The notes under the pieces were generated by a model. It saw only the letters and a program-made list of their open reading frames with translations. It was not told where the DNA came from and did no database searches. 64,000 nt of DNA from IMG/VR virus record IMGVR_UViG_3300020442_000015, positions 35,496 to 99,495 of that record; one strand, given 5' to 3'. Shown here one piece after another: positions 12,326 to 56,709 of this stretch (positions are counted from its first letter, which is position 1; every line of letters starts with the position of its first letter). The DNA is from a virus. The translations under genes were made by a program, and so were the position numbers.

Positions 12326-12483
12326 TGAATTTTGACTCTGAAGAACTGAAGTATCTGCTCACAGTATTGGGCAGAACATCATCTTTCACCCGTGCTAGAG
12401 GTGAACAAATCGATCACCCAACAATTAAACATCAACGTATTGAACGTAAAGTTCAAGATCAACTAAGACGTTTGCATCAATGA
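12325..12483 (+). CDS. 52-residue hypothetical protein between oxygenase genes
   Basis: A short frame starting at the TGATG junction with the upstream oxygenase and ending in an ATGA overlap with the next one, so it fills the gap exactly. The product is basic and probably helical (SSFTRARGEQID, HQRIERKVQDQLRR). Not recognised. The perfect fit between neighbours is the main reason to accept it. Confidence 0.55.
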   Translation: MNFDSEELKYLLTVLGRTSSFTRARGEQIDHPTIKHQRIERKVQDQLRRLHQ

Positions 12484-13103
12484 AACTAACAATCGAAAAT
12501 CCATTCGATACATTCTATAAGAAGGCAAAAGATGTCATCGTGTTTGATGATATTATTCCTGAGGTATACCAAAATTGGTTGATAGATTGTATCAAGAATG
12601 AAGACCTGATGTGGCACCGTAAGGATGCTGCAATTAGTGATATGTTTGAGGATGATCCTCGCAATGGATTCTGCAACTTTCACTATCTCTTTGATAAGGA
12701 TGAGGGTGGAGAGTTGAGTCCATTGTGTAATGCGTTTATGCCACTGGCATTGCAGTTTAGAGAGAAACTTCAGGCAGAATGTTTGTTTCGTATGCGTGTG
12801 AATTGTGTGCCTGCTTGGCACTCTAATCAAGTACAACTTCCACACGTTGATTCGTATCATTTTGAAGCGTGGAATGTTATCTACTACATTGATGACAGTA
12901 ATGGTGATACAATCATCTATGATGAACGTACGAGAGATCATCAAGAATACTTGAAGATTGCAACGAGAGATATGTACACAGTTAAGACAGCAGTATCACC
13001 CAAGAAAGGACGTGCTGTTGCTATTAAAGGTGATCTCTTTCACGCTTCTACATTGCCAATGGGAACTTGGAGACCAGTGTTAAATATGGTAGTACATTCT
13101 TGA
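12480..13103 (+). CDS. Fe(II)/2-oxoglutarate dioxygenase-like protein
   Basis: 207 residues. H122-V-D124 in 'LPHVDSYHFEAWNVIYYID', distal H188 in KGDLFHAS and R198 complete the metal and 2OG sites. 'DDSNGDTIIYDE' parallels 'NDSDGDTLFFND' of the 9853 enzyme, so the two may be paralogues. It begins by ATGA coupling to the 52-residue gene. The N-terminal 100 residues differ from the 9853 enzyme. Confidence 0.82.
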   Translation: MKLTIENPFDTFYKKAKDVIVFDDIIPEVYQNWLIDCIKNEDLMWHRKDAAISDMFEDDPRNGFCNFHYLFDKDEGGELSPLCNAFMPLALQFREKLQAECLFRMRVNCVPAWHSNQVQLPHVDSYHFEAWNVIYYIDDSNGDTIIYDERTRDHQEYLKIATRDMYTVKTAVSPKKGRAVAIKGDLFHASTLPMGTWRPVLNMVVHS

Positions 13104-39900: not shown

Positions 39901-42900
39901 CAAACTCCCTTGCTCCCGACGATATGTGGGTAGCACTGCTGGATATTGACGGCACCATTATGGAGAAGCGTAAGATCGCTTCTGAAAGTGGTAGTGAGCA
40001 TCTGGTTGATCTCCAATGGAAATCCACCGATACCTTTATGTTCATCGGTATTTCTGATCCTGCTGGTGCAAGTGATATTATTCTTGGTGAAACTTACTAC
40101 GATACTGCAACTGTTGAACTGCAGTGGGCAAAGAAAATTGAGAGTGGCGCATATAAGTTTATGCACCCCACCTTCACCATTGATGAATATGGTGCTGTAT
40201 ATGTCGCAGCAACTGCTGTGAATGCTCAGGACAAGAATTATGGTGTGTTGTACGTCAAGTTTGATAATAATGACTACACTACACCTGTTGAGCATAAGAT
40301 TTATGTTCCTACTGGAACCTATGATGGATGCCACAATGCTGGTATTAAGTTCGACGTGTTTGGTAACATTGACCTTGGAGTCTCTGTCACTAAGGCATTT
40401 AATGATGTTCAGTCCACAACTCTGAAGATTTCTTGGAATAGTGGCAACATTATCAGTGCTTCCTCTGCAAGTGAGAGTAGTGGTATTGGTTATCACGCTG
40501 TTGACTTGTCAAGTGATAACTCTGGCGACACAGTTGTTATTGGTAATAAGGTTGAAGCAGATCAACTTGCAATCTTCAACTGGAACACTGCCGATAATCT
40601 GCTTGATGAAACTTACAATGACACTCTGAAAACTGGTACGAACAAGGCTTGGTATGATACGAACTATGCAACTATCGATACTGCTAAAAAGCAAGATGGT
40701 GCATCTTCTGTTCAGATCATAGACCCCAACTCACTTGTTCTCCAATATGGTTCTGATGTAGCAACTGAGTGGGCAACTGAAGCGTATTTCGCAATGCCTG
40801 CAGCTAGCTACACTGCAAATAACACTGACCCCGAGTTCTTCTCTGTTTCTGATGCTCTGAACAACACTGTTAGGTGTGGTCTTATTGCTGATCAATCCGA
40901 TGCCAACAATGGTAAGGTGTTTATTGCTATTGGAGGATCTTCATCATATTCTGCTGCAGCAACTTATCGTGCAGCGTTCAATGCCGAAAGTTTCGTTCAC
41001 GTTGCATTCACTAAGGAGCGTCCTGGTGTTGGTAACTATCGTTATCGTGTTTTCATTAACGGTGTACTTGCTCTCGAAACTCTGAGCACAACTGTTGATG
41101 TCAATCTTAAGGATGTAACCCTCGGACCTGTATCCACACCGAGTACCAATAATAGCTGGATAGGATGGGTTGATAACTTTGTTGTCTCTCCAGTATTCAA
41201 ATACAACGATGCATTCACTCCTGCAGTTGTTGCTGGTACAAGCAGCCCGACTCAAGCATTCCTCTACAAGATTGATAAGGACAAGACGAAACTTGGCACC
41301 TTCAACCTTGACGATGTTGAGACAGGTCACACTCTTGTAACCGCCGCTGAGAGTGGTTATACGTTTAATACCCAACCTGTCACTGTTAATCCCTGGATTA
41401 TTGGTCCTGCAGGTATTCAGATTCTTGATTATTCTGACGTAACCTCTACTCACGTTCCTGGTATCTACACATTTACAGATTCCTCAGAGAAGTTTAGTGA
41501 GAGAACTGCAACCATTCCTACACAAGGTGGTACGAAGCTTCTGCTTTCTGCAACTGTTATTCCCAAGTTCTACTTGCGTGATGCAACATATAACAGTATT
41601 GACCTTGTTAAGACCCTTACATTCAATCAACCCGCAACTTTCACTAAAGGTTCCATCCTCCAACAGTATTCTGTAATTGGTGGAAGCGATGTTGTTTCTG
41701 CATATGGAACAATCGTTGAAGCTGGAACAAACTATGCAAAGATCGGTAAGATTATTGGTAACTTTGACACCACAAAACTCCTGAAGTCAACGGCAGGTGA
41801 CATCAATACTCTTGATCGTAACTTCACTGTTGAAACTACAACACCTCAATGGGTTGAGAACTTCTCATATACTGTTGGTGATGTTGTTTACAATGCTGGT
41901 AAGATTTACACTGCAACTTCTACAGGCGTTTCTGGTCCTTTGGCACCAGAGCACACCACTGGTATTGTGACCGATGGTGCTGTCAACTGGTCTTTCACCA
42001 GTGTTTCTGGCAGTTTCGACGTTGATCTGGCAAATACTGTTTACAATGGCAGCACTCTGGGAGCGTTTACTTCGTGGAGAGCATTTGCTGCAGAAGATTA
42101 TACTATTAAGATTGAAGAAATCTATGGCGATTCCTCCTTTATTAAGGGTGATACCATTGATGCGGATGCAGTCAACCTACAATTTACCGTTGATGCAACT
42201 GGTAAGATTGCTACATTTGCTGGATTGATTGGTGTTAAGAAGTTCTCTTTGATTGCTACACTTGACAAAGACGTTATTCCTGCTTCTGGTCTTGCAAATA
42301 CCGATCTGGTGTACTGCTCCGCCAACAGTAGACATAACTTTGAGGCAAATGAAATCATCTTTACAGAGAGATTTGCCACTAATGACTACAACGGATCCTT
42401 CTTTGTTGAAGAAGTCTTTAGTTCTAGAGAGTTTACATTCCGTTTGAGAGGAACTGCTGTTCAGGATCCCACATTCTCAGGCACAGGTTCTTCTGTTTCC
42501 AACGTTAATATCTACGCTAAGCACCCCAAACTGCTGTTTGTTCGCTATCACCAGTACATTTTTGACCTGGATGATCCATCAAACCTCGGTTATTACCTGT
42601 CTTTCTCTAAGGATAACCAGTACAAACTGGAATATCCGTTCATTAACATCATTAGAGAGGGTACACCTGGTCTGACTGACGACGATTCACCCACTCCGTT
42701 GGTTAAATTCATCGTTACAGACTCCGTTACCAATATTTCATACTATTTTGATCCATCTAGAACTGGAGCAGACTCTCCTGTTGGTGAAGGATCCTTTATT
42801 GACGTTATTCAGAGTCCTTATTCTGGTAGATTTAGAGTTTCTGCAACTGGAACTCAAGGAACTACCTTCGATTTCCCACTTCTCGTTGAACCTGAGAAGA

Positions 42901-45900
42901 CTATCGCTCCCGTTGGTAATAATGAGTTCGGTAATGCTCGTTCTTCTTACTCTACAACCTCTCCAAAAGCGATTGGACCTATTGCAAGCATCAAACTTGT
43001 CAACCCAGGTGGTTTCTATCAGAAACTTCCCATCGTTACGGACATTGCATCGAACAGAGAAATTGAAAAAGTTCGTATTCTCAACGGTGGTACTGAGTAT
43101 GTGAACGGTATTTACTACAATGTACCTATTACTGGTGACGGTGAAGGTGCAAGTTGCAATATTACAGTTCAGGATGATGGAGATTTCACTGGTGTTATCA
43201 CCGATGTCACTCTTACATCCGCTGGTAAAGGATATAAAACTGCATCTATCGACGTTGATGCTATCCCTGGCATTCTTGGACCTCTTCTTGCAGGTTCTGG
43301 TGCACAACTTCAAGTTGTGATTCCTGATGAAGGTTCGGGTGCATCGGTGTTCCTGCAAGGTAAGAGCATCGGTAAGATCAAGAAACTGAAGAACAACGAA
43401 TTTGGTTTCGGATATTCTCACGATTACACTCTGAGACCCGAAATTACTTTCCCCGTCAACCTTCAACTGTTTAATACCGCTATTCTGTCGGAGATCAAGA
43501 TCACCGATCCTGGTTCTGGTTATACCTCGGTTCCTGCTGTTGTTATCAGTGGTGGCGGTGGATCTGGTGCAGAAGCAGAAGCAATCGTCAAGAACAACAG
43601 ACTTTCTGAAGTTATCATCAAGAACCCTGGTTCTGGTTACTCTTCTGAACCGACTGTTACCCTGAAGTCTGAATTTAACTACGTTGTCAACGTTGACTTG
43701 GGTTATTTACAGTTCAACTTCCCGCACGGCATCACAACTGGTGCAGAAGTTCAGTTGAGAGCAGAAGATCTTGGTTCTACAGTTGGTGTTCTGCCGAAAC
43801 CGAGTTCTGCAGGTTTGGTTAGCTTGAGCCCAAATCAGATCTACTACGCAATCGCTGGTGAGCAAAACTCCTTGGAATCTGACCAACTTCGTATTGCACT
43901 GACCAAACTTGACGCAGAATCTGGTTCTTTCATCACATTCTTGACTCAAGGTGATGGTCGTCAGGTTCTGTTGACCGAAGTGTTTGGTGGTCAAGCGACT
44001 GCAATCGTTGAAACCTCCAGATTCCTTGAAGGTGAACTTGTTTATCAGGGTTCTTCGCTGGAACTCGCATCTGCAACTGGTTATGTTTCTACTAACGAAG
44101 GTTGGCAGATCGGTCCTCGTATCCTGAAACTTGAAAACTATGATGGTATCTGGAAAGAAGGTGAGCGTGTAACTGGTCAGGTGTCTCGTGCATCTGGTTT
44201 GGTTGACAACCTGTCTATTGCTCGCGGTACTCTGAACATTGCATCTCTGACTAATACACCTGGTCAGTTTATCGATGACGTGGGTAAACCCTCCGAAATC
44301 GTTCAGAAGATCCAAGATTCCTATTTCTATCAGAACTTCTCTTACGTTATTAAGTCTCAGACACCTATTAACGACTGGAGAAAGTCTGTTCTGGAAACAA
44401 ACCACCCTGTTGGTTTCAACCTCTTCGGTGAACTAGCAATCACAGGTGGTAAGGATATTTCGGGTCGTAAAGTTATTTCCGACTTGATCAAGGAAGTTAA
44501 TATCAACTCCTTCACTAATATCAATGAAATTACATCATTTGCTAACGCACAACCGATTTACACCCAGTTTAATAATACTGAGGTGCTCTTCAGACAGAAG
44601 AGACTTACTAACTCTGAGGAAATTCTAACCTCTATCGTTAAGAAGATCGATGATGTTTCTGATCAATTCAATGGTATTAAAACCCAGTTCCCACTGAATG
44701 TTGAGGGCGAATCTATCACAGCAACTGAAACTCAGATGTTTGTGTTGATTAACGGTGTTGCACAGGCACCTCAAGAAGCATTCTCTACTGCTGGTCCTTC
44801 CATCGTCTTCTCTGAAGCACCTAAGGCACCTTCTAGAATTAAATTCCGTGAAATTCAATACTCCCAAATTACTCTGACTCGTTTGACGTTCAGTAACATT
44901 GGTGGTATCTTCCCGCTGACTGGTAATACTGTTAGAGGTATTGTTTCTGAGGCAACTGCAACTGTTATTGATTCTGGTGTTGACTATATCGATGTTTTCG
45001 ATGTTGAAGGTACATTCCAGACCAACGAACAAATTCTTAGCAGTGCAACTGGATTCAACTCCACTCTTGCAACTGTAAACCCTGTTACTTCTAAGACGAT
45101 CTTTGAGCAAGGTGAAAGAATCACCAACCTCAAGGGCGACTTTGCAATTATTGAAGAAAATAACTTGCAGGGTGGTGTTATTGGTAACGAACTGGTCGTT
45201 TCTCGTACTTCTGGTACTGATAAGTTTGAGACTGGTGAATTTAACATCAAGTTTAACGATGTTATCTACTCTTCTAGATCCAAAATTGCTGCTACTGTTA
45301 CTGTTATCGCTCCGTATAGCGATGACACCAGTAATCAAATTATTGACCAGGTTGATCTGTCTCCCTCGTCTTCGTTCTTTGCTCTTGTTTTCCAGAGAGT
45401 TCCTTCAACAACATTCCCGAACGTCATTCTTGACGACATCGGTGCAACTGTTATTAACCCAACAGAACTCAATGACCTTGAGTCACCCAATAACCAAGAT
45501 TTCCTTGACTTCGAGTCTGTCCGTAACCAAGAAATTCGTTACGATCAACTGACTGGTACCGATTTCGCACCTGGAACCAACATCAGATTGAAGAAGATCT
45601 ACTTCGGCAACTCTTCTCTTAGACAGGTTACTGATACTCGTGCTAAGAATGCATCTGACGCATTGGTGAAGAATGCACGCTTTATTGCTGAAGAAGCCGT
45701 GGGTGATATGTTGAATTTCTACCCCTCCTTTAGCATCAATACTGTTGGTGGTAATCAGGATTGTATGGATGACATCGTTGATGTTATCAACGCAGCTGCT
45801 TGGCAACTTGAGTTTGATGGCAACTCTGAGATCTGGGACATTGCTAACACATATGTCCAGAACCAGGCAATCTACCATCTTGACGGTGCAGTTCCTCAAA

Positions 45901-48900
45901 CCATCTATGCAATGAACGCAGCAAGAGATCTTGCTCTGAAGTGCATCAGAATGGAGAATATTGATACTGAGTATACAACTCTGTCTCAGTGGAAGGATCT
46001 GACCCTGACTCCTGAATACGAAGTTGTTAGCAACAGTCACGCTGACGCTCGTACACTGATCCTTGCTAACAAGTGGTATATCGCACACGAATCACTGCAC
46101 TACGCTAAGACGCAGAATCCATCTCTGGTAGTTCCTGGTGGAGATGTCAACTGCTTGTCTGACATCGTGGATATGGTTGAATCGATGGCATACAACTTGG
46201 CACACGGTGGTAACGACTTTGTTTACGATGCAACTCGTTACTATATGGCAGGTGCACACGTTGCTGGATATGAAGATGACACCGTAAATGCCTTCACTAA
46301 GGCAAAGGCGATGGCAATCAGCATTATGAGAAACGAAGCTGTTGTTAAGCAAGGTTCCCACGGTTGGAACCAAGTGACTGACACTTCTATTACTGCCGAT
46401 CCTGCTAACCCGACTTGTCAAGCAGTTGCTGCTGCAATCACAACTCTGATGGATATTCCCATCAATGCTCTGGGTACTAACGCATCTCCTGGAACTTTAG
46501 CAGCATTTGAGGCAGCATATACTAAGACTGCACCTCAAGCAAACTATGCTGATGGTAGAACATCTATCGGTAGCAGCACTGCTTGCGTGAGTCAGACATC
46601 TGCCGTTACTAACTTTATTAAGATCATCACAGATTCTCTGCAAGATCCTACAGGTGCAGATCCTGCAACCTATCAGTGGTCTATCAGTAATGTTACTCGT
46701 GTTGAACCCCCATATGCGTTTGAAGATAACGAAACTATTCGTTCTATCAAGCACAACTATAGTAATAAGTCTTCTGGTGGATTCTTCAACTTCGGTGACA
46801 CGATGAAGGGTATCACCTCTGGTGCTACCGCCGAAATTATCGGTACAAATGCTGGTAACAAGTGGATCTACACCAAGGGCGTTACTGGTGCGTTCTCTGG
46901 AAATGAGTACATCACCAACTCCAAGATTACCTATGCAAATGTCTCCGTAGACAACATTACATTTGGTGTTGGACCTGGATCTCTTGATTTCAGTGGATCT
47001 GGTAGCAAAATTGATATGATTGCTGACCAAAGAGTCAATTTTGGTACTGCTGACTTCACTATCGAAGCTTGGATTCGCCCTGACAGCGTAACTGGTGTTC
47101 AGAGAATTATCGACGCTCGTTCTACATCTTCAAGCGTTGCGCCAACACTCTTTATGAGTGGAACCTCTCTCCGTTATGGTACTGGTGCTGGTGACCATAT
47201 CACTGCTACTGGTGCCATCACAACCATCGATACCTGGTATCACATCGCTGTTTCCCGTGCATCGAACGTTACTAAGATGTTCGTGAACGGTACGCAAGTC
47301 GGTTCTGATTATACTGACAATAACGACTATGGCGATACAGCGTTCAAGGTTGGTGCTGCTTGGAACAATGGTGAAACCTATGACGGACATCTGGACCAAA
47401 TGGTCATCAGAAAATCCGCTGCATATTCTTCTACTTTTACTCCCCCCACCGTATACACTACAATATACGAAGGTCTTGATGTCACATTCGGTCTTAACGG
47501 TAGTCAACCGTTCCCGATGGAAACTACTGCAATCTACGCGACTTATGGTCAGACCATAATCTCTTCTGCAACTGCTGACGGTGTTGAACTGTGGCGTAGT
47601 GAGATTATGACTGAGGAAGTTGATGTTTCTCGCGATGATTATCGTGAATGTGCTGACATCATTGATAAGAACCGCTTCTGGATTGCAGAAGAAGCAGTTG
47701 GTCGTATGAAGGCAAAGTATCCTGACTTTGTTATTCCTGGAGACGTTGGTCTCGCTACTACAGGTACCGACAAGTGTCTCCGTGATACTCACTCCTTTAT
47801 CATCCCCGCAATCATTAACGATCTTCGTTATGGTGGCAACTTCAACACTATCGTTGCAGGTCGTGGATACCTGGAAGGATCTGGTGCTCTGAAGCACGTG
47901 AACGGTGAACTTCTCCAGTCCATCTATACCTGGCGTGAAGTTGGTAAGATCTGTATTGATGTTATCACTGCAAACCAAGATGATCTGACTGGTGAATATA
48001 CCAACAGAATTCGTGTTCCTAACTACTTCTCCTCACCAGCGTCTTCTCAAATTACAACGTTTATTACTGATCTGATTGACAATATGTTGGATGTTATTGC
48101 TCCAACTGGTCACAGATTCCGTGATGGTGCTGACCTTCTCTACTTCAACCGTAAGTCTATTGCTGATGAAGCAGTGGCAATGCTGGAAGAGAAATGGCTT
48201 GTCAACATTGCGTTCTATCAGCAAAGCAAACTCACTATCCCCAACAGAGAGAAGTGCATCCGAGATCTTAGAGATCACATTATCCCTGCTGTTGCTGGTG
48301 ACTTGATTACTGGTGGTAACTCCAATATCCAAGGTATTATCGATTCTTACTTGGATAGTCAAGAAGACATCAACTACATTGAAGGTGAACTTCTTCCTAT
48401 GCTGGATGCATTTGAAGATGTGAAGTTCCTGTGTGGTAAAGCACTGGAAAACCTGTTGGTTGGTCGTAATGAGAACATTGCTAACCTGACTGGAACTAAC
48501 GCTCAAACAATTAACGATTTCTATCAGTATCAGTACACTGATCTCCCCGCATACAGAAAGGTTTACGATGCTGCTGTCAACTACAGTGTTGATGGTGCTG
48601 AAATTACTGAGAGCACTTTCTATCCTCCCGATCCCCACATCTTCTCTGGTACCGATCGTGCACTTGATTCTGCAAACATCCTAGAGGAAAATGCACGTAT
48701 CATCGCTGAGGAAGCGGTTGATCTGGTTATGAAGACCTCTGCGTTTAAGCATACTGGTTTCAAAGTTCCTGGTGGTAAGGTCAACTGTGAAGATGACCTG
48801 GTTGATTACATCAATGCAGTCTGCCACGACCTCAGATTCACAGTAAACGAGAAGTCTTACGACGCATCTGCACTCTATCTGGATACTCAGATGGGTCTGC

Positions 48901-51900
48901 AGCACGTTACCAATCAATCCGCAGAGACTGTTCACGCCTATAAGTTGGCACGTGATATGTCAATTCTCGCGATCCGCAACAAGCTTGGGTTTAATCCCTT
49001 CGAGGAGTCCACTGGAGGCGGTGGTGCTCTTGGAGGAGGCGGTGGCGGTGGCGTCCCTCGCGGTGATTATGATAACAATGCAACTGCAAATGGTTTCTAC
49101 GATTCTGCAAACAGCATTGAAAATAACCTCAGATTCATTGCTACAACTGCAGTTGGACGTGGACTGACTAATTATCCTTCTCTGACTATCCCTGGTGGTT
49201 ACCAGAACTGTGTTGATGACGTTATTGACATCCTGAATGCTCTGATCTTCAACTTGAAGCACGGTGGCAACAACAAGATGTACTACGCAACTGAGTTCTA
49301 CATCAGCAACGCTAACGCAGTTGTTCACGTGCTTTCTCAGGCAACTGAGACTAAGTACATTATGGAACAGGCACGCGATATTGCTATTGAGGTTCTCAGA
49401 AATCAGTCTGTCACAACCAACGGTACAACAGAAGGATCTCAAGCGATTGACAGCACAATCACTACTGACACTGCTAACCCCACTTGCCAAAATGAGGCAG
49501 CAGCAGTTACAACACTGATGGGTATTCCTATCAACCTGTTCACTCAAACTTCTAACCCTCAGGGTTACCTGAATGGTGTAACGAGAACACTTCCTGATGA
49601 GTGGCCACTTACTGGTGAGCGTGCACTCAGACGTGACATCGACATTACCTATGATATGGCAGGTAACGGTGACTGTGCTCTGGTTTCTGCTTCTATTGAC
49701 ACCCTGTTCTCGTATGTGATCAACGTCGTTAATACTGCTGCAGCAGGTAGCGGTAACTGGTTGACAAATAGTGGTCTCGTTAGAACCACCAAGGCAACTG
49801 GCAACACTCTGAATAATGGTGGTGGTCTTTGCTACAACGTTAGATCTGCTTCCAATGTCCTCTTCGATCTTCTTGAGGATACTCTGGGTAGAGCAGGTGA
49901 GATGTATCGTCAGGCAGCACGTCTGCTTATTATCAATGATAACTACATCAACCGTGAGGCATACTACAAGACTACTCAGCAGTACAGTGGTTATGGTGGT
50001 GATGAAGCATATGGTAGTTCTATCCGTAAGGCATTCATCTACGACTTGCTCACCGATGGTAATGCTGCAACCCTGCAACTCGTTAACTCCTGGTTCGATG
50101 CTGAGGGTAACTTTATTGCATTCCCTGGCGTCTTCAGAACTTATCTGATCTATCACGCAACTGCAATTAAAGATTTCTGTAAGCAAATCATTGGTCAGAG
50201 AGCAATTACTCCTGGTACTTACAACCAAGAACCCACGTACACGGATCGCGAACTTCGCCCAACTGTTTACGCTGAGCATAAGATCGATCAACTTGATCAC
50301 TTTATTCAGACCGCTCTGCTGCGCTCTACTCCTCCGACAGTTATCCTTAAGCAGTCCTTCGACGCTGGTGTTGCGGTCAATACCAACGGTTCTATCACTG
50401 CTGCGGGTCATCCGTTTGAAGCATACGATAGAGTCAGTTATCAAGTTCTTGGTAGCAATATTGCCGAACTTACCTTCACGCAATATTATATTCACCCCGA
50501 TACGACTGCAAATACCATCTGGTTGGCAGAATATATCGATGGTCACAAGATTACAAGTCTGACACCTGGAACCGCAGGTCAAATTCATACGTTCGTCTGC
50601 TTACGTGAGAGCGGTATTGACAGAATTACCACCACATATGGTGATCGTGTCATTCCTACTCCTATCACTGGTGGTATTCAACCTGCTGACATCTTCTATG
50701 GCACTTCTTCTGGTGCATATGGTGAGGTCATCCGTATTCAGGACAACCTCGCAGAGGTTATGTACAAGATCAAGCACGCAGAAGTTAATGTTACAACTGA
50801 AACCTTCTTCACTCTTGGTGAGACTGTGGTTGTTCAGGGTGCTACTGGAAACACTTCAACATTGCTTGCTTCTACTGGAGCAACTGGTACGGGTTACGTC
50901 AAACTCATCGTCAATGGCGGTCAATTCCAGCAAGGCGATGTTATTGAGGGAACTACTAGCGGTGCACAAGCATCGATCACAAGTATTCCCGACGATAGAA
51001 TCCTGGTCAACTTCGACAAGGGTGAGTTCATTGCAACTGACATCGTTTACTCCAAAGAAGATTCTGGTAAGGCAAATGCACTAATCGTCCGTAATAATGA
51101 CGGTGCTCTGATCAACAACCAACTTGGTCGCGTTACATTTGACATCGAAACTGTCAAAGGCGAATTCAAGGAGAGAGATGTTATCTACGGTTCTGTTACA
51201 GATCAGATCATTGAAATTGAAGGATTCAACATTCTTCCTGGATTCGGTGAGTATCTGCACTCTACGGAGATCACACGCTTCACGTATGCAAGTTTGACCA
51301 CTGATACTGGTGTTACAGACACATTCCAAGTTGGTGACGTGCTGCAACTCCAAAACGCAGGTCAGTCTGTGGGTCACACCTTCGTGGTTACCGAGCACGA
51401 TACTGATAACAACTACGTTTATCTCGCTAACGAGACGAACAGATACATTGGTATCATTGACGACTTGAGCAATGACCTGACCGCTATTGCAAACAATACT
51501 GCATACCAACTTGCCAAGATTCCTCCTGGTTCTAACTTCCCAAGTGTTTACACCAGCGCGATCTCCAACGTTACAATCACACCGACTTCTGCATATGGTA
51601 AGGTCGCGAAGATTGAACAAGTTGGTCTTCGCCTGATTATCCACCTGGAAGATAGTAATGGAACATTCCTGAAGAACTCTCAGATTATTGGTGACTTTGG
51701 ATTCCAAGGTGCTTGTGGTGGGGCGAAATACCTACGCGGGCGCGTGAAGAGATTCTTCCGTGGTTTTGATGGTTCTCAACAGAACTTCAAGTTGACCACT
51801 GATAACGGAACTCCTTACTTCCCAGATCCCGCAGGTCATATGATGATCTTCGTGAACGGTATCCTCCAACCTCCTGGCGGTAACAACGCTTACACGGCAT

Positions 51901-53051
51901 TCTCTGACAACATTCAGTTCACTGAAGCACCTGCTATCAACTCCACGTTCCACGGCGTCTACGTGGGTAAACTGAGACAGTTGGATGACATCTCCTTCGA
52001 CTTCGACTCGTTGAGGAACTCCTTCAACCTGAAACTGGGTGGTGTGTTCTACTCACTGACTCTGACTGAAGGTGTTCAGTCCAACACGATCAGACCTGAG
52101 AACAACATCATCTGTCAGTTGAACGGTGTTATTCAGGAACCTGGAATTGGTTTCGAGATCGTTGGTTCTAGAATCATCTTCTCTGAGATTCCTCGCGCAG
52201 GTTCGACCTTCGTTGCATTCTCCTACATCGGTTCTGACGTTGACGTTATCGCGGCAACCGTCGTTCCTCCGATCGAAGCAGGTGACATTCTGCAGATCGA
52301 AGGTGAGGACGAGAGTAGAGAGGTTGCTTTGATTGAATCTTCCAACTCCCTGATCACGTTTGAATACTCAGGCGCTGTTCGCGGTCGTAACGGTCAAGCA
52401 TTGGCAGAGATTGAAAAGGGTCGCGTTACTAGAGCAATTCTTACTAACTCTGGTGATGGTTACACTTCACGCCCACAGGTGGATGTGATTTCCTCCTCTG
52501 GTTTCGGTGCACGCATCAAGGCACTTGTTGGTCTCGCACGCATTGACGTGAAGAACGCAGGTCAGGGTTATGTTCAACCTACCGTTGCAGTCAACACGAC
52601 TGTTGCAGACAACTTCTTCGCACCTACTGGTGCTCCTCTCAACGGTGGTATTGACATCTACGATCCGAATTATGTTCCTCCTGGCGAAACTGAAGCACAG
52701 GGTGAACAGGCAATCATCATCGAATCTCAACCAGTTAACACAACTGTCAACCAGGGTCAAACCGCATCGTTCACCGTGGTCGCTTCTACTAACCCCGCAG
52801 GCGGTACAATCGCTTACCAGTGGCAGAAGAAGGACTATGGCACAAGTTCCTGGACTAACATCCCAGGCGCGACTAGCCCAACTTACACTACGAGTGCTAC
52901 AACTCAAGGTGATGGTGGTGACGAGTTCAGATGTGGTCTCACTGCAGCGGGCGCAACTCCAACGCTCTCCAACTCTGCAGTCCTGACGATCAATATCGGT
53001 GCAACCGTGATCCCAGGATTCACCTCAGACCAGATCTTCGACGACAACTAA
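33909..53051 (+). CDS. Giant 6380-residue baseplate-associated virion protein
   Basis: One uninterrupted frame of 19.1 kb in the place of T4 gp7, after gp6. Approximate plan: 1-230 start domain (SQRVQDQIPAFIKEDNEQFV); 298-620 'G-x-GY' beta repeats; 665-1015 a conserved module (NAPQIIKTISDFYSSKGTK); 1128-1330 more repeats with GGGG turns; 1400-1560 YHYH domain; 1835-2218 propeller-like repeats (VGETVPN, MIGGYTDAN); 2240-2440 LamG-like; 3020-3260 repeats; 3908-4158 and 4571-5440 helical repeats; 4350-4510 second LamG-like; 5480-6260 beta modules; 6270-6365 Ig-like. The wedge-initiator role is inferred from the N-terminal position. The remainder looks like adhesion or decoration modules added to a baseplate protein. 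Confidence 0.85.
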   Translation: MKAVTVSQRVQDQIPAFIKEDNEQFVNLLAEYYRSQEKPGRPYDILNNILRYTDIGSGEFDPNFLSSESAVLSAVDPYQNTIVAENVNYFLEKDGTLKIDDEIIYYESITHSPDVVFTPGVNKEEFDRKIQEFEPIASQFNGSTTEFNLKLLGDPVSPQSADHLLVIVNNEFQFPNRDYFVDGDRIRFVNPPVAPTGALTGALNTIRYLIGYTSVPVRSLDPISVGADSKQFHLTRNTQPYQPLSTISSIVVVDRVEKRPFEEFTIFEDKIIFKDTLGAGSTVDVRSIELIAPEFGANAEAVVKVQNGEVEDIIVKDGGSGYRMSFSPKVTIASNLGTGSDATAEALVNGIKNVSLLFSGQGYSANNPPLVEVDAPADPEGKTAKITATVSDEIEGVVQLNVLSSGSGYDRIPSIKFTNPGGAIISGPTLTDGRIDADSFTVVDRGSGYTTAPLVYIDPPTGSNAIVASVMAHLDADGRLDRIEVLSGGQGYETVPRAKIIDPVGAQILDVNVTGGRVTNIELLTGGKGYTDAPSVYIVDNRKDVANNPIGGTGATAVATIFNGEITDINITSFGEGYSDTEPPKVFIAAPPAPEASCDVGFGEITGFTIHNPGSDYQPSAFVNCKRGVSAVSAYSQKGNQIYSKESDTIQSSHAVGSTIHNLDNLFAKELYRRYINQYLPNAEIDYNKVNAPQIIKTISDFYSSKGTKISTQYLFKMLFSENVDVSYPKDEVIKPSAATWNVDTVLRAELLSGDPRDLLDSQLFQYRDAVDTTVGAASALIENVIAINTGVGTVYELAISEETLQGQFSIPYRTTLVEALDTTESIITVDSTIGWPERNGTIRINDQEIVQYKEKTLNQFIECTRSKNGVVEDWDAGTQIYSDVFVYVNQGQSNELKLRVLGIADAKSTVLSDTGSYYLPGDKLNVASLGSTSDDQRITSWLYNVKKLIQVTGIVPGGLNNQTATVTCSNNHGLLVGDSVTIYGANPTVFNGTFLVTSRLSNTVFEYNIPQPAPNAPQGNILLSVDLNKGKSSESGINIAIKDFTTNVQNTFFNEQYSYIASSGIPNYEVGPFLGSALLPGNQRKLIRIPRVINTVSKREDVKFGPVGAWVNGVSAWSYKSNSKIKFGGVTSITIDNPGKGYDAASPPVIEVNGGGGSGGAATVVVNGSLYEIEVTSGGTGYTSSPLVSIVGGGGFGATATAVITNGVVSRILVESPGQGYTSQPTVSVSGGGGTGCTATASVRGPIQSVSVTNSGSSYTLSPEIKLNSGEGAVAQPIIINGRIVSIAIIAAGRGYTTAPEVVINGDGYGAVARATIGTIGEDRGKVIGVTVVNRGIGYSTGMTTIRLEAIGEQAQFSANVFEWTRNLQDELSLNFDAARGYVFAGYNTQYGGEYAHVSDPKQLRYVLGDNVFRNQSTGQLQELSTGYVHSPILGWAFDGNPIYGPYGYIDATDQSSGIRRIRSSYKVKDALIYDAATNPNPVRADGPLLTDYPAGSFIDDFEYVFQEGDLDQYNGRFCKTPQFPEGVYAYFVSIDASDFGNPVFPYVCGPQLYSSPDQWNYSQNAVQTNIPADVVRFRDPYEDVDIDIDRQPNQDTDTLVTEEGLALIFEIEDINRNGIIDGDESTATINIAEEPVLQLFDYYPRVSVRSEVDIDIETTTKFEDAQVDGFVIENPGISYKVSDKLYFDNEGTEGFGASAKVDAVKGLTISGYSSYMANDTPYGRITTPDEHELRVGDEVIVQSTPIIDDTNKTFKVKVISGVETVTVTQAGSGYSEELPPTYEVISSTGQDFRIDIPRTEAGAVNTVNIINSGSGYDKDEPPQIRVSHPQRFKKATYFLSFLKENASTTTITDIKVADDRTIYVCGKTVKSDGDTAGLLAKFNSDGRLLWQRTLFPTVPASGTKSLEWKALYVENSNPHNIYVVGETVPNSVNLTHNPDVVVAKYRSGFDNANNPDGIIQWQRDIAGISGATRRDYAASIALDQDGRVMIGGYTDANSLAPDDMWVALLDIDGTIMEKRKIASESGSEHLVDLQWKSTDTFMFIGISDPAGASDIILGETYYDTATVELQWAKKIESGAYKFMHPTFTIDEYGAVYVAATAVNAQDKNYGVLYVKFDNNDYTTPVEHKIYVPTGTYDGCHNAGIKFDVFGNIDLGVSVTKAFNDVQSTTLKISWNSGNIISASSASESSGIGYHAVDLSSDNSGDTVVIGNKVEADQLAIFNWNTADNLLDETYNDTLKTGTNKAWYDTNYATIDTAKKQDGASSVQIIDPNSLVLQYGSDVATEWATEAYFAMPAASYTANNTDPEFFSVSDALNNTVRCGLIADQSDANNGKVFIAIGGSSSYSAAATYRAAFNAESFVHVAFTKERPGVGNYRYRVFINGVLALETLSTTVDVNLKDVTLGPVSTPSTNNSWIGWVDNFVVSPVFKYNDAFTPAVVAGTSSPTQAFLYKIDKDKTKLGTFNLDDVETGHTLVTAAESGYTFNTQPVTVNPWIIGPAGIQILDYSDVTSTHVPGIYTFTDSSEKFSERTATIPTQGGTKLLLSATVIPKFYLRDATYNSIDLVKTLTFNQPATFTKGSILQQYSVIGGSDVVSAYGTIVEAGTNYAKIGKIIGNFDTTKLLKSTAGDINTLDRNFTVETTTPQWVENFSYTVGDVVYNAGKIYTATSTGVSGPLAPEHTTGIVTDGAVNWSFTSVSGSFDVDLANTVYNGSTLGAFTSWRAFAAEDYTIKIEEIYGDSSFIKGDTIDADAVNLQFTVDATGKIATFAGLIGVKKFSLIATLDKDVIPASGLANTDLVYCSANSRHNFEANEIIFTERFATNDYNGSFFVEEVFSSREFTFRLRGTAVQDPTFSGTGSSVSNVNIYAKHPKLLFVRYHQYIFDLDDPSNLGYYLSFSKDNQYKLEYPFINIIREGTPGLTDDDSPTPLVKFIVTDSVTNISYYFDPSRTGADSPVGEGSFIDVIQSPYSGRFRVSATGTQGTTFDFPLLVEPEKTIAPVGNNEFGNARSSYSTTSPKAIGPIASIKLVNPGGFYQKLPIVTDIASNREIEKVRILNGGTEYVNGIYYNVPITGDGEGASCNITVQDDGDFTGVITDVTLTSAGKGYKTASIDVDAIPGILGPLLAGSGAQLQVVIPDEGSGASVFLQGKSIGKIKKLKNNEFGFGYSHDYTLRPEITFPVNLQLFNTAILSEIKITDPGSGYTSVPAVVISGGGGSGAEAEAIVKNNRLSEVIIKNPGSGYSSEPTVTLKSEFNYVVNVDLGYLQFNFPHGITTGAEVQLRAEDLGSTVGVLPKPSSAGLVSLSPNQIYYAIAGEQNSLESDQLRIALTKLDAESGSFITFLTQGDGRQVLLTEVFGGQATAIVETSRFLEGELVYQGSSLELASATGYVSTNEGWQIGPRILKLENYDGIWKEGERVTGQVSRASGLVDNLSIARGTLNIASLTNTPGQFIDDVGKPSEIVQKIQDSYFYQNFSYVIKSQTPINDWRKSVLETNHPVGFNLFGELAITGGKDISGRKVISDLIKEVNINSFTNINEITSFANAQPIYTQFNNTEVLFRQKRLTNSEEILTSIVKKIDDVSDQFNGIKTQFPLNVEGESITATETQMFVLINGVAQAPQEAFSTAGPSIVFSEAPKAPSRIKFREIQYSQITLTRLTFSNIGGIFPLTGNTVRGIVSEATATVIDSGVDYIDVFDVEGTFQTNEQILSSATGFNSTLATVNPVTSKTIFEQGERITNLKGDFAIIEENNLQGGVIGNELVVSRTSGTDKFETGEFNIKFNDVIYSSRSKIAATVTVIAPYSDDTSNQIIDQVDLSPSSSFFALVFQRVPSTTFPNVILDDIGATVINPTELNDLESPNNQDFLDFESVRNQEIRYDQLTGTDFAPGTNIRLKKIYFGNSSLRQVTDTRAKNASDALVKNARFIAEEAVGDMLNFYPSFSINTVGGNQDCMDDIVDVINAAAWQLEFDGNSEIWDIANTYVQNQAIYHLDGAVPQTIYAMNAARDLALKCIRMENIDTEYTTLSQWKDLTLTPEYEVVSNSHADARTLILANKWYIAHESLHYAKTQNPSLVVPGGDVNCLSDIVDMVESMAYNLAHGGNDFVYDATRYYMAGAHVAGYEDDTVNAFTKAKAMAISIMRNEAVVKQGSHGWNQVTDTSITADPANPTCQAVAAAITTLMDIPINALGTNASPGTLAAFEAAYTKTAPQANYADGRTSIGSSTACVSQTSAVTNFIKIITDSLQDPTGADPATYQWSISNVTRVEPPYAFEDNETIRSIKHNYSNKSSGGFFNFGDTMKGITSGATAEIIGTNAGNKWIYTKGVTGAFSGNEYITNSKITYANVSVDNITFGVGPGSLDFSGSGSKIDMIADQRVNFGTADFTIEAWIRPDSVTGVQRIIDARSTSSSVAPTLFMSGTSLRYGTGAGDHITATGAITTIDTWYHIAVSRASNVTKMFVNGTQVGSDYTDNNDYGDTAFKVGAAWNNGETYDGHLDQMVIRKSAAYSSTFTPPTVYTTIYEGLDVTFGLNGSQPFPMETTAIYATYGQTIISSATADGVELWRSEIMTEEVDVSRDDYRECADIIDKNRFWIAEEAVGRMKAKYPDFVIPGDVGLATTGTDKCLRDTHSFIIPAIINDLRYGGNFNTIVAGRGYLEGSGALKHVNGELLQSIYTWREVGKICIDVITANQDDLTGEYTNRIRVPNYFSSPASSQITTFITDLIDNMLDVIAPTGHRFRDGADLLYFNRKSIADEAVAMLEEKWLVNIAFYQQSKLTIPNREKCIRDLRDHIIPAVAGDLITGGNSNIQGIIDSYLDSQEDINYIEGELLPMLDAFEDVKFLCGKALENLLVGRNENIANLTGTNAQTINDFYQYQYTDLPAYRKVYDAAVNYSVDGAEITESTFYPPDPHIFSGTDRALDSANILEENARIIAEEAVDLVMKTSAFKHTGFKVPGGKVNCEDDLVDYINAVCHDLRFTVNEKSYDASALYLDTQMGLQHVTNQSAETVHAYKLARDMSILAIRNKLGFNPFEESTGGGGALGGGGGGGVPRGDYDNNATANGFYDSANSIENNLRFIATTAVGRGLTNYPSLTIPGGYQNCVDDVIDILNALIFNLKHGGNNKMYYATEFYISNANAVVHVLSQATETKYIMEQARDIAIEVLRNQSVTTNGTTEGSQAIDSTITTDTANPTCQNEAAAVTTLMGIPINLFTQTSNPQGYLNGVTRTLPDEWPLTGERALRRDIDITYDMAGNGDCALVSASIDTLFSYVINVVNTAAAGSGNWLTNSGLVRTTKATGNTLNNGGGLCYNVRSASNVLFDLLEDTLGRAGEMYRQAARLLIINDNYINREAYYKTTQQYSGYGGDEAYGSSIRKAFIYDLLTDGNAATLQLVNSWFDAEGNFIAFPGVFRTYLIYHATAIKDFCKQIIGQRAITPGTYNQEPTYTDRELRPTVYAEHKIDQLDHFIQTALLRSTPPTVILKQSFDAGVAVNTNGSITAAGHPFEAYDRVSYQVLGSNIAELTFTQYYIHPDTTANTIWLAEYIDGHKITSLTPGTAGQIHTFVCLRESGIDRITTTYGDRVIPTPITGGIQPADIFYGTSSGAYGEVIRIQDNLAEVMYKIKHAEVNVTTETFFTLGETVVVQGATGNTSTLLASTGATGTGYVKLIVNGGQFQQGDVIEGTTSGAQASITSIPDDRILVNFDKGEFIATDIVYSKEDSGKANALIVRNNDGALINNQLGRVTFDIETVKGEFKERDVIYGSVTDQIIEIEGFNILPGFGEYLHSTEITRFTYASLTTDTGVTDTFQVGDVLQLQNAGQSVGHTFVVTEHDTDNNYVYLANETNRYIGIIDDLSNDLTAIANNTAYQLAKIPPGSNFPSVYTSAISNVTITPTSAYGKVAKIEQVGLRLIIHLEDSNGTFLKNSQIIGDFGFQGACGGAKYLRGRVKRFFRGFDGSQQNFKLTTDNGTPYFPDPAGHMMIFVNGILQPPGGNNAYTAFSDNIQFTEAPAINSTFHGVYVGKLRQLDDISFDFDSLRNSFNLKLGGVFYSLTLTEGVQSNTIRPENNIICQLNGVIQEPGIGFEIVGSRIIFSEIPRAGSTFVAFSYIGSDVDVIAATVVPPIEAGDILQIEGEDESREVALIESSNSLITFEYSGAVRGRNGQALAEIEKGRVTRAILTNSGDGYTSRPQVDVISSSGFGARIKALVGLARIDVKNAGQGYVQPTVAVNTTVADNFFAPTGAPLNGGIDIYDPNYVPPGETEAQGEQAIIIESQPVNTTVNQGQTASFTVVASTNPAGGTIAYQWQKKDYGTSSWTNIPGATSPTYTTSATTQGDGGDEFRCGLTAAGATPTLSNSAVLTINIGATVIPGFTSDQIFDDN
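34800..35780 (+). repeat. Tandem G-x-GY beta repeats within giant protein
   Basis: About eight to nine protein repeats of 35-45 residues, each with a 'I.V...G.GY...P.v.i' core (examples: DGGSGYRMSF, SSGSGYDRIP, DRGSGYTTAP, SGGQGYETVP, TGGKGYTDAP). The same unit recurs at 37291-37900, 42980-43680 and in the proteins at 26956 and 56713. Confidence 0.75.
45630..50220 (+). repeat. Helical repeat units within giant protein
   Basis: At least six units of about 105-120 residues, at roughly 45630, 46036, 47638, 48110, 48655 and 49090, with two weaker ones after 49620. Shared core: 'A..i..N..fIAeEAV......P.f.iPGG...C..D..d.I.a...dL..GGN...ydA...Y', then '.et..A...ar....i.rn'. Units two and six are each followed by a matching 'ANPTCQ..AAA.TTLM.IPIN' segment. 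A LamG-like domain lies between units two and three. Confidence 0.75.
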
Positions 53052-53256: not shown

Positions 53257-54999
53257 ATGGCAGCAACAGGTTCTTACAACGCAGTAACAGACATCCTAAC
53301 GGTAACGGGTGATGGATTACCAACACCAGTCAGTTACGGAACGTTCCCTAATGCAAATAACCCAAACTCAGTTACAAGTTATACCTTTAGTCACGCTTTT
53401 ACAGATAGAGGCGGTGATAATACATCTGGAGGATCTACTGTACCTCTAGGTATTGTTGGTATTGCAGCAAATGGTGTTGCACTCTTTAATCCCAGTGCTG
53501 GTGATGGTGGAGCTCCTCCAGCGGGATTTAACTGGATTGCTGCTGGACACAATCCACAGGTTAATTTTGGTGAGGACGAATGTGGTGGTCATCCCGAGCA
53601 ATCGGGGCAATACCACTATCACGATGCTCATTTTATGGATTGCTGGAAAGCAAACCAGGTGATTGCTGGATATAATGATTATTATGGTTTGACTCAGTTC
53701 CAAGGTGATAACCTTCGTCACCCTGATGGACACTCCAAGATTCTTGGTTATTGTTTTGATGGGTATCCTGTTTATGGACCCTATGGATACTCCGATCCAA
53801 ATAATAATGAATCTGCTGTGCAGATTATGAAACCTGGGTATAAACTCAGAGAAACTGAAGCAGTAAATAGACCTTCTTATAGCACATACCCTGCAGGATC
53901 CTTTATGCAGGATTTTGTGTATGACGAGTCTATTCCTGGAAGACACCTAGATTCATTTAACGGAAGGTTTGCAAAAACTCCTGAGTTCCCTTCAGGAACA
54001 TTTGCGTATTTTGTCACAGTGTTCCCAGATGAATCTGAGAACATCACATATAATGTAACCGTGACAAGTGAAAGTGATGGTAATAAATACCGTTTGGATG
54101 GCAATCTATATCCTGATCTAGATTTTGTTCGTGGTAGCACTTACAAGTTTGATCAAAGTGATGCATCAAATGCTAGTCACTCCATTCGTTTTTCTACTCA
54201 ACTCAATGGTACCCACGCTGGTGGGCAAGCATATACCAATGGAGTTACTGTAGTTGGTGAGGCTGGACAAGCAGGAGCATATACTCAAATTGTTGTTCCT
54301 AATGATGCTCCAGCAACGATTTACTATTACTGTGTAAATCACTCTGGTATGGCAAATAATGCTGTCGTTACCACTAGACCTAACAAGTTTTTGGAACCTA
54401 AGTTCCCATATATGTTTGGTCTTGCATCGAAAGAGGCACTGAACATTCCTGCAAACCAAGGTATTGGTCAGGAAGAATCGGGTGGTGGTGAACAAGGTGG
54501 TGGTGAAGGTGGTGGACCAGCAGAACCTCCCTCTCTCGTTATCAATAATCAACCAACTAATGCAACTATTGCAGCAGGTGGTACTCAACAATTTTCGGTC
54601 TTGGCAATCGTCGAACCTGAAAACGGACCTATAAATTATCAATGGCAAGTATCTACTGACGGTGGCTTTGCGTGGTCAAACGTTAGTGGTGCAACCTCAT
54701 CAACATATTCATTTGTTGCTCTGGCGTATATGACGGGGTATAGGTACAGATGTATCCTCACTGGACCTATTGGTGCTCCCCAACAAGCACAAAACTCTCC
54801 TTTGGCATCAAACCTTGTTATTCTCACTGTCACTGGTAGTGAGTCGCAGATTGATTACACATCGATTCTCAAGCTTGACGATACTAATGGAAGATATGAT
54901 GTTACCGCAGTCACATTTGATAGAGACAATACCAACCCTGGTTTTACAACAACTTCTATCAGATTAGACAGCACCAGCTATGAGTTTGACCTTACATAA
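53257..54999 (+). CDS. Virion protein with YHYH, cupredoxin-like and Ig-like domains
   Basis: 580 residues. Residues 119-122 are literally YHYH; 'GYCFDGYPVYGPYGYSDPN' and 'YPAGSFMQDFVYD', then 'NGRFAKTPEFPSGTFAYFVT' complete a YHYH domain (to about 255). Residues 265-380 form a plastocyanin-like domain: 'DFVRGSTYKFDQSDASNASH' with H308, and C359-V-N-H362-S-G-M365 gives the full His-Cys-His-Met set for type-1 copper. A GG/E linker (about 405-425) leads to an Ig-like domain (WQVSTDGGFAWSNVSGATS). The YHYH domain has a close relative in the giant protein. Surface decoration or adhesin is likely; metal binding is inferred from residues. Confidence 0.75.
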   Translation: MAATGSYNAVTDILTVTGDGLPTPVSYGTFPNANNPNSVTSYTFSHAFTDRGGDNTSGGSTVPLGIVGIAANGVALFNPSAGDGGAPPAGFNWIAAGHNPQVNFGEDECGGHPEQSGQYHYHDAHFMDCWKANQVIAGYNDYYGLTQFQGDNLRHPDGHSKILGYCFDGYPVYGPYGYSDPNNNESAVQIMKPGYKLRETEAVNRPSYSTYPAGSFMQDFVYDESIPGRHLDSFNGRFAKTPEFPSGTFAYFVTVFPDESENITYNVTVTSESDGNKYRLDGNLYPDLDFVRGSTYKFDQSDASNASHSIRFSTQLNGTHAGGQAYTNGVTVVGEAGQAGAYTQIVVPNDAPATIYYYCVNHSGMANNAVVTTRPNKFLEPKFPYMFGLASKEALNIPANQGIGQEESGGGEQGGGEGGGPAEPPSLVINNQPTNATIAAGGTQQFSVLAIVEPENGPINYQWQVSTDGGFAWSNVSGATSSTYSFVALAYMTGYRYRCILTGPIGAPQQAQNSPLASNLVILTVTGSESQIDYTSILKLDDTNGRYDVTAVTFDRDNTNPGFTTTSIRLDSTSYEFDLT

Positions 55000-55002
55000 A
55001 TA
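54995..55002 (+). promoter_or_regulatory. Late promoter, CATAAATA
   Basis: CATAAATA overlaps the stop of the YHYH protein gene and lies 24 bases before the ATG at 55027. One mismatch from the late consensus. Confidence 0.6.
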
Positions 55003-55026
55003 AAACTGTAGAAAAACCCCCCTATT

Positions 55027-56709
55027 ATGGCTAAGCAGAATCTGAATATTGGCGTTTCCGCTAATGACGGAACTGGAGATACCCTCAGAGACGGCGCTAT
55101 TAAACTGAATAACGTCATCAATGAGTTGTACACCGCTCTGGGTGATAACACCAACCTGCAGATTAGTATTGGTTCTCCGTCTACCAATCAGGTTCTGAAG
55201 TGGAATGGCAGCGTCTTCACCGAAGGACAACTTGCAGTTTCTAACCTGACAGACATCGATGTTAGTGGAGTCACTAACGGTCAGGTTCTGAAATGGAACG
55301 ATGCTAATGCACGTTGGCAACCTGGAGACGATTTACAAGGCGGTGGAGGTGGCGGTTCGTCTATCACGAACCTGTCAAACAATGGATCGGGTAACGTTGT
55401 TATTGACACCCACTTCCTTCCTAATACAAACGAAACTTACGACATCGGTTCTTCTACACTCAAGTTTCGTGACATCTATCTGAGCGATTCGACCATTTAT
55501 TTGGGCGACACTGCGCTTTCTTCTGACCCAACTACACAAGAACTTCAGAGAAAGAAAAAGCAAGTTCACACTGTGAATAGCATCGATACTGGTGCTACTC
55601 GTACTGTTGCTTCCAAACTTGCTTCCGAGAACTCAACTGCAGAAGAAAAGTTCCGCACTCGTTTTAGTGTGATGAAGGCAGGCACTAAGTTGGAGTTCGC
55701 TGATCCTTCTGGTGCTAAGTTTGTAGCAGATTTTGTAGACTTTACTGCTGAGAATGGCGGTGCACGTGGTTTTATTCGTGTTACTGCTGCAGGTGCAAAC
55801 CAATCTCAAGAACTGAATGTTACTGGTGATATTCATATCACATCTGTTAATAACCTCGTTTCTTTTGATGAAGCTGGTGCGATTGATCTTGGTGGTCAAC
55901 CGCTCTCCTTTGGTGCTGGTCGTACAATGTCTATCGATGGTGATGGCATTTTGGAACTGCCTGCCAACAGCTCTATCCGTTTTGGTGACATTGCTTCAAC
56001 CAAGACGATTGGTATTGACGCAAACGGTAACCTCGATCTTGCTGCTGGAACAGACATCCGTTTTGGTGCTGATGCTAACAAGGCAATCAAGTTTGATGGT
56101 AGCGGCAACCTTGAGATTCCTACTGGCGCTGAAATTCGTTTCGGTTCTGGTGGAACCAAGAAAATCGCTATTGACACAGACGATAACCTAGTTCTCCCCA
56201 CAGATGCTGAGATCAAGGTTGGAACTAAGCGTATAAAGATCGATACCAACGGTGAGTTGCAGATCGCAAACGATGGCACTACCTTCCAAGACGTTGACCA
56301 AGGATTCCGTCGTCAGATGGGTAATGCTCCTGTAGGTGCATCCATCATCAAAGGTCACGATAACGCAACTATTCATCAACCCTCTCCTGCACTACTCTTC
56401 AGATTCTCCCCAGCAGGTGGATCTTCTGCTTACACAGTTCAGGGTCCTGGGTTTGTTGGTCCTGGTGTGAGTAATGCAACGATCGTTCTGTATCGTGGAT
56501 TTACATACGTTTTGAATAACGTAGGTGGCGGTGCTCACCCATTGAGAATCCAGTCCACTACTGGTCTGGGTCAAAGTGCATATACTGCTGGTATCACTGG
56601 TTCTGAGTCTGGTGTTCAGACTTTCACAGTTCCTCACGATGCTCCAACTACACTGTACTATCAGTGTACTGCACACTCTGCTATGAATGGTACACTTGAT
56701 ATTCGTTGA
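55027..56709 (+). CDS. Tail-fibre-like virion protein with C-terminal cupredoxin-like domain
   Basis: 560 residues. The head 'NLNIGVSANDGTGDTLRDGA' with 'KLNNVINELYTALGDN' is a common cyanophage fibre start. Residues 95-190 carry 'YDIGSSTLKFRDIYLSDSTI' (fibre/peptidase-linked beta motif). Residues about 295-425 are a run of short beta units (ELPANSSIRFGD, DLAAGTDIRFGA, EIPTGAEIRFGS). The last 100 residues are cupredoxin-like with H504 and C547-T-A-H550-S-A-M553, the same ligand spacing as the 53257 protein. It has its own late promoter. Probably a fibre or whisker. Confidence 0.72.
   Translation: MAKQNLNIGVSANDGTGDTLRDGAIKLNNVINELYTALGDNTNLQISIGSPSTNQVLKWNGSVFTEGQLAVSNLTDIDVSGVTNGQVLKWNDANARWQPGDDLQGGGGGGSSITNLSNNGSGNVVIDTHFLPNTNETYDIGSSTLKFRDIYLSDSTIYLGDTALSSDPTTQELQRKKKQVHTVNSIDTGATRTVASKLASENSTAEEKFRTRFSVMKAGTKLEFADPSGAKFVADFVDFTAENGGARGFIRVTAAGANQSQELNVTGDIHITSVNNLVSFDEAGAIDLGGQPLSFGAGRTMSIDGDGILELPANSSIRFGDIASTKTIGIDANGNLDLAAGTDIRFGADANKAIKFDGSGNLEIPTGAEIRFGSGGTKKIAIDTDDNLVLPTDAEIKVGTKRIKIDTNGELQIANDGTTFQDVDQGFRRQMGNAPVGASIIKGHDNATIHQPSPALLFRFSPAGGSSAYTVQGPGFVGPGVSNATIVLYRGFTYVLNNVGGGAHPLRIQSTTGLGQSAYTAGITGSESGVQTFTVPHDAPTTLYYQCTAHSAMNGTLDIR

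Follow-up and report, generated by a model that had tools for sequence, protein, structure and literature searches.

Two adjacent baseplate-region proteins of a T4-like marine cyanophage carry cupredoxin domains with a conserved, putative type-1 copper site

Where copper proteins are known in cyanophages, they are soluble electron carriers of host origin, for example plastocyanin. Homologues of the T4 baseplate protein gp9 have also been found in cyanophages. A further domain of relevance here, YHYH, has been noted in phage tails and was predicted to be a Zn-binding domain or Zn-dependent hydrolase (PMC7824862) or, alternatively, to act in receptor binding (PMC7029224). Here we describe a locus in which both a YHYH protein and a gp9/gp10-type protein contain a cupredoxin domain. 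The DNA studied is a 64 kb stretch (the window) of a virus record of 99,495 bases. The best overall explanation, in which our confidence is about 0.6, is that the window encodes the baseplate module of a marine, T4-like cyanomyovirus resembling Kyanoviridae, in which two adjacent baseplate-region proteins bear a type-1 site maintained by selection on an exposed, modular and copper-stapled barrel.

The genes of interest lie on the + strand. A giant gp7-like structural protein of 6380 amino acids is encoded at 33909..53051, directly 5′ of the gene for a 580-residue YHYH, cupredoxin and Ig-like protein (53257..54999). This is followed by the gene for a 560-residue baseplate wedge/tail-fibre connector of the T4 gp9/gp10 type with a C-terminal cupredoxin (55027..56709). 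The connector gene is followed on its 3′ side by genes for a baseplate protein of 624 residues and for a gp8-like protein. The gene order is identical in P-TIM40 and S-WAM1 (Kyanoviridae). The YHYH protein and the connector had been assigned to the virion in a preliminary description of this DNA; homology to the T4 baseplate together with gene order agrees with this and makes both of them probable baseplate proteins. Virion proteomes have been published for S-SM1, S-PM2 and Syn9 (PMC3037559); the S-SM1 protein that corresponds to gp9 is ADO97247 (T4-GC 398). Gene relatedness was the sole guide to the probable host. A search of the record gave no psbA or plastocyanin gene, an absence that is uninformative because only a 99 kb piece of the virus is on record. 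Elsewhere in the window, a tryptophan halogenase-like phage gene (phrog_2928) is located at 6497-8188 and an endonuclease V gene (phrog_274) at 12480-13103.

The YHYH protein matches family phrog_25852, a virion structural protein. Its YHYH domain (residues 62-255, 53440..54021, + strand) belongs to PF14240 with an E-value of 6.8e-33 and 114.7 bits against a cut-off of 25, and it carries HPDGH and QYHY motifs. The cupredoxin (residues 263-374, 54043..54378, +) was delimited by AF2, Foldseek and insert comparison and sits between the end of the YHYH domain, AYFVT, and a KFPYMFGL segment. The distance from the YHYH end to the FPYMxGL segment is 117-136 residues in 41 relatives and 3-8 residues in 23, so that, as judged from these distances, the cupredoxin is a cassette whose insertion point is always the same joint. 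Within it, the codon of H308 is found at 54178..54180 (+; CAC and CAT alternate synonymously among relatives) and the ligand loop C359-V-N-H362-S-G-M365 was read at 54331..54351 (+). An Ig-like C-terminal stretch (about residues 425-540, 54529..54876, +; phrog_3995/phrog_613) matches a tail protein, PDB chain 9c2d_S, with an E-value of 4.7e-8 over residues 425-531.

The connector is assigned to the T4 gp9/gp10 type by its sequence and position. Its N-terminus matches PF07880 (E-value 4.4e-10, 40.3 bits against a cut-off of 25) as well as the N-termini of T4 gp10 and gp9 in the PDB, the best family is phrog_677, baseplate wedge tail fibre connector (E-value 7e-68), and the gene is placed in a baseplate operon with gp7-like and gp8-like neighbours. 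The cupredoxin occupies about residues 481-560 (56467..56706, +), as delimited by AF2, Foldseek and a profile search against PDB sequences. The codon of H504 was read at 56536..56538 (+) and the ligand loop C547-T-A-H550-S-A-M553 lies at 56665..56685 (+), C547 being the sole cysteine of the connector.

Two complete ligand sets, H308/C359/H362/M365 and H504/C547/H550/M553, had been described previously for the 580-residue and the 560-residue reading frame, and frames, coordinates and residue numbers were exact. The shared consensus VPxDAPxTxYYxCxxHSxM can likewise be read in each copy. When the whole 64 kb window is read in six frames, the pattern C..H[SA].M has only two matches, both in the genes of the YHYH protein and the connector. 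The bare pattern C..H..M has seven matches in the six frames (127,996 codons), so that the motif by itself means little. After shuffling of the YHYH protein and the connector, it appeared with a probability of 0.001 and 0.0001, respectively. A chance motif was rejected on the grounds of conservation and fold, although bare C..H..M is not rare. A single profile recovers both cupredoxin domains, and it is this homology, with one profile and a common fold, that is the decisive evidence for both domains beyond the motif.

To characterize the fold, structures were modelled with AF2. For the C-terminal region of the connector with 42 relatives, the mean pLDDT was 83.2, with values of about 95-97 in the domain itself. 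For the YHYH protein, the cupredoxin part (residues 261-370) reached 95-98, and the YHYH part was poorly modelled. In Foldseek searches against the PDB, copper nitrite reductase, rusticyanin, amicyanin, AcoP and plastocyanin ranked on top for the connector domain, and AcoP, rusticyanin, laccases and nitrite reductase were found for the domain of the YHYH protein, with moderate TM-scores of 0.4-0.6. The models thus place both domains in the cupredoxin superfamily of Greek-key beta-barrels. Together with the aligned ligands, they bear out the earlier reading of a cupredoxin fold with a complete set of type-1 ligands. Judged by sequence, the site is a putative type-1 copper site, with His, Cys, His and an axial Met, Gln or Leu in order and a Cys-x2-4-His-x2-4-Met loop; the four ligands would be expected to converge in space, given the modelled fold and the aligned positions. 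The closest folds are all electron-transfer or oxidase copper domains, and free plastocyanin is also encoded in the cyanophage group (for example PetE of Syn9), as would suit a redox-active site whose copper exchanges electrons with surface or periplasmic proteins of the host, or undergoes reactions with oxygen species, at adsorption. We consider such a role quite improbable. Neither a partner nor a second redox centre was identified, nor was the type 2/3 His set of multicopper oxidases; the domains are only remotely similar to the phage's PetE, and we know of no acceptor for electron transfer by an extracellular particle. A copper-loaded, metal-stapled exposed barrel is favoured over electron transfer.

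Comparison with known families was also carried out independently of the structure models. A search with profile A1, built on the gp9 domain, against PDB sequences yielded copper nitrite reductase, plastocyanin, amicyanin and azurin, with 2vmj among the matches, at E-values of about 1e-3 to 1e-2 and with H, C, H and M aligned on the copper ligands. These E-values are modest singly, but their mutual agreement across copper proteins is persuasive. With the mixed profile A3, a search of PDB sequences matched no cupredoxin. The Pfam family Copper-bind/plastocyanin-azurin (PF00127) matched one of 22 members with an E-value of 0.013, below the gathering score, and had no match above threshold in the same viral record. 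For four of the 22 members, the NCBIfam amicyanin family (TIGR02657) was the best family (best E-value 1.1e-4). Amicyanin is the nearest named family, and the domains are still not assigned to it.

The conservation of the ligands was assessed in several samples. In a first sample, partly fetched by patterns that contain the ligands, 86 of 90 distinct domains were HCHM. Because such patterns introduce a selection bias, two samples were refetched via ligand-free YHYH and gp9 bodies. The gp9-selected sample (71 distinct domains) comprised 66 HCHM, two HCHQ and three cut domains, and the YHYH-selected sample (47 distinct domains) comprised 43 HCHM, one HCHL and three cut domains. Some loci are common to both samples, which are therefore not wholly separate; among the loci retrieved through gp9, the domain of the YHYH protein may also be represented. 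Among gp9-type domains of named phages, picked for spread and not for the site, the full ligand set was present in 17 of 17, and 41-46 residues lie between His and Cys. Invariance in alignment A1 is confined to two Gly and to H80, C123 and H126, while M129 is conserved in at least 90%. The residue after the first His is mostly Pro or Ser; plastocyanin and azurin have Asn at this position. The ligand codons vary synonymously (CAC 95/CAT 84, TGT 98/TGC 79, CAC 99/CAT 77). In these comparisons, conservation of the ligands among orthologues is above background and the ligands are under selection, in keeping with the preliminary description, which had argued against drift and had proposed examining the four ligands in homologues: orthologues keep them, and loss is seen only in other paralogues.

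The axial position drifts to Gln and Leu while His-Cys-His is constant, as in known type-1 sites. Cupredoxin sites take up Zn and other metals in vitro, and a Cys-His-His-Met site could bind Zn, Ag or Ni in nature, copper being merely a laboratory ligand. A fourth ligand that is Met or Gln on a cupredoxin barrel is, however, a hallmark of copper sites, which makes another metal improbable, even though a Zn site is predicted for the adjoining YHYH domain (PMC7824862). On the same prediction of a Zn hydrolase, the YHYH protein may contain metal sites of two kinds. The ligand Cys is the sole cysteine in 39 of 48 distinct gp9-like frames. Since it usually stands alone, it has no partner for an intrachain disulfide in these frames; a disulfide role was rejected for this reason, an intermolecular disulfide in a trimer being formally conceivable. 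A cysteine that is kept, alone, in an extracellular particle, next to two His and a Met arranged as in cupredoxins, is most readily accounted for as a putative metal ligand, and the conserved site suggests that copper may be carried by the virus particles, as the preliminary description had supposed when it considered a possible effect on adsorption or redox at the cell surface.

Copies of the domain that lack the ligands are also found. A third copy in the same virus belongs to a tail fibre protein (phrog_693) encoded upstream of the window (L123:2647-4548; domain at G000:C1 33765-34007). Its ligand positions are occupied by Leu, Ala, Thr and Tyr, and likewise, with small changes, in its relatives. 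A fourth, weak cupredoxin-like stretch without ligands was found in the giant protein (about 42516-42767, residues 2870-2953; profile score 7-9 bits), and the giant proteins of P-TIM40 and S-WAM1 have stronger counterparts of it. These copies in the same virus, one clear and one weak, indicate that the scaffold can exist without a metal site. Clustering of all full-length domains at 60% identity gave 51 clusters, with four ligands in 40, three in two, two in none, and one or none in nine. The three-ligand clusters comprise one with Met shifted by one residue and one cut at the end of the alignment, and among the nine a few alignments stop before the loop. The first His lies 41-51 residues from the Cys and yet co-varies with it (Fisher p 3e-7 for joint loss, a statistic that ignores kinship of clusters by shared ancestry). 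Across clusters, the ligands are thus all-or-none, with loss nearly always joint and only in other paralogues.

These observations must be weighed against a barrel that binds no metal in the virion, the four residues serving only its packing or folding. Structural use of the barrel is evident from the ligand-less copies in this virus and in other phages, and the host cytoplasm, where virions assemble, is poor in copper. We nevertheless regard a metal-free barrel as unlikely: ligands are lost jointly, even over the distance between the first His and the Cys, and not singly, an unpaired and otherwise unique cysteine is retained in an extracellular particle, and it is the axial position that drifts, not His-Cys-His.

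Among 50,697 phage records, 342 and 332 matched the cupredoxin domain, and almost all of them are from marine phages. Fibres of a pelagiphage and of a Methylophilales phage likewise contain it, and one cyanophage has up to five copies. In a 442-residue reading frame (L053, frame +1), a complete HCHM cupredoxin (215-307) is nested inside another (145-208 and 314-358), whose His lies in one half and whose C-H-M lies in the other. Related cupredoxin domains were also seen on contigs labelled SAR86, Pelagibacterales, Rhodobiaceae and SAR116 (L130, L133, L134 and L135). The nearly exclusive marine occurrence, including the fibres of the pelagiphage and the Methylophilales phage, would be compatible with copper-loaded connector tips that, by mimicking a copper ligand of the host, attach to its copper uptake in the outer membrane, as a copper version of the Ferrojan horse proposed for iron. 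The marine restriction can also be explained by lineage history. Such docking is the least supported of the rival explanations and seems highly improbable.

Our preferred reading is the copper-stapled barrel. Its scaffold would be an exposed beta-barrel that acts as a modular interaction or adhesion domain, like Ig-like domains in other phage tails. The apo domain with His-Cys-His-Met would be made in the copper-poor cytoplasm and load copper around lysis, from the medium or the host periplasm. By bridging the C-H-M loop and the His strand far from it, the metal might then staple the barrel. Copper as the metal, its presence in virions, the exposure of the barrel and the role as a staple are what we infer. 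A more far-reaching version, which we hold to be possible rather than probable, is that T4-like cyanophage particles are copper metalloparticles, with a ring of type-1 sites per baseplate in the gp9-type connectors plus sites in the fibre and YHYH proteins, and that changes in copper state adjust how fibres attach, how the particles adsorb or how stable they are in seawater. A T4 particle contains 18 copies of gp9; with the same copy number, about 18 Cu per virion would be expected from the connector alone. Low levels of copper are toxic to Prochlorococcus and Synechococcus. If the sites are loaded, these abundant ocean viruses would contain copper in a defined stoichiometry, and their infection could be sensitive to it. 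The natural ligand-less copies provide built-in controls for the copper claim.

In the literature searched, whose coverage did not extend to subscription journals and bioRxiv, no report of cupredoxins in phage tails was found. The putative site described here is probably part of the infection apparatus, in a connector that joins baseplate and tail fibres, and is found in about 330 sequenced marine phage records. With amicyanin, plastocyanin, azurin and rusticyanin, the phage domains share the barrel fold, the order His...Cys-His-Met and the aligned ligands, and with amicyanin also the length of the C-x2-H-x2-M loop. As in type-1 blue copper cupredoxins, the axial ligand is Met and occasionally Gln or Leu. 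They differ from blue copper proteins in that they are fused into large baseplate or fibre proteins and show, by eye, no signal peptide; identity is very low (13-22%), and a redox partner is not known. Cyanophage plastocyanin, which relatives such as Syn9 encode as PetE, is of the same superfamily, but it is a free, host-derived electron carrier of 107 amino acids and only its ligand loop can be aligned. The YHYH protein resembles YHYH tail domain proteins in its PF14240 match and its tail or baseplate association, and differs by the fused cupredoxin, a cassette that is absent from 23 of 64 comparable relatives. The connector shares its N-terminal domain and operon position with T4 gp9/gp10, whereas, in the phage records searched, cupredoxin matches are almost wholly confined to marine groups. 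The fold, the copper site and free cyanophage plastocyanin were thus already known, and what is new is the use of the domain as a virion module in T4-like cyanophages.
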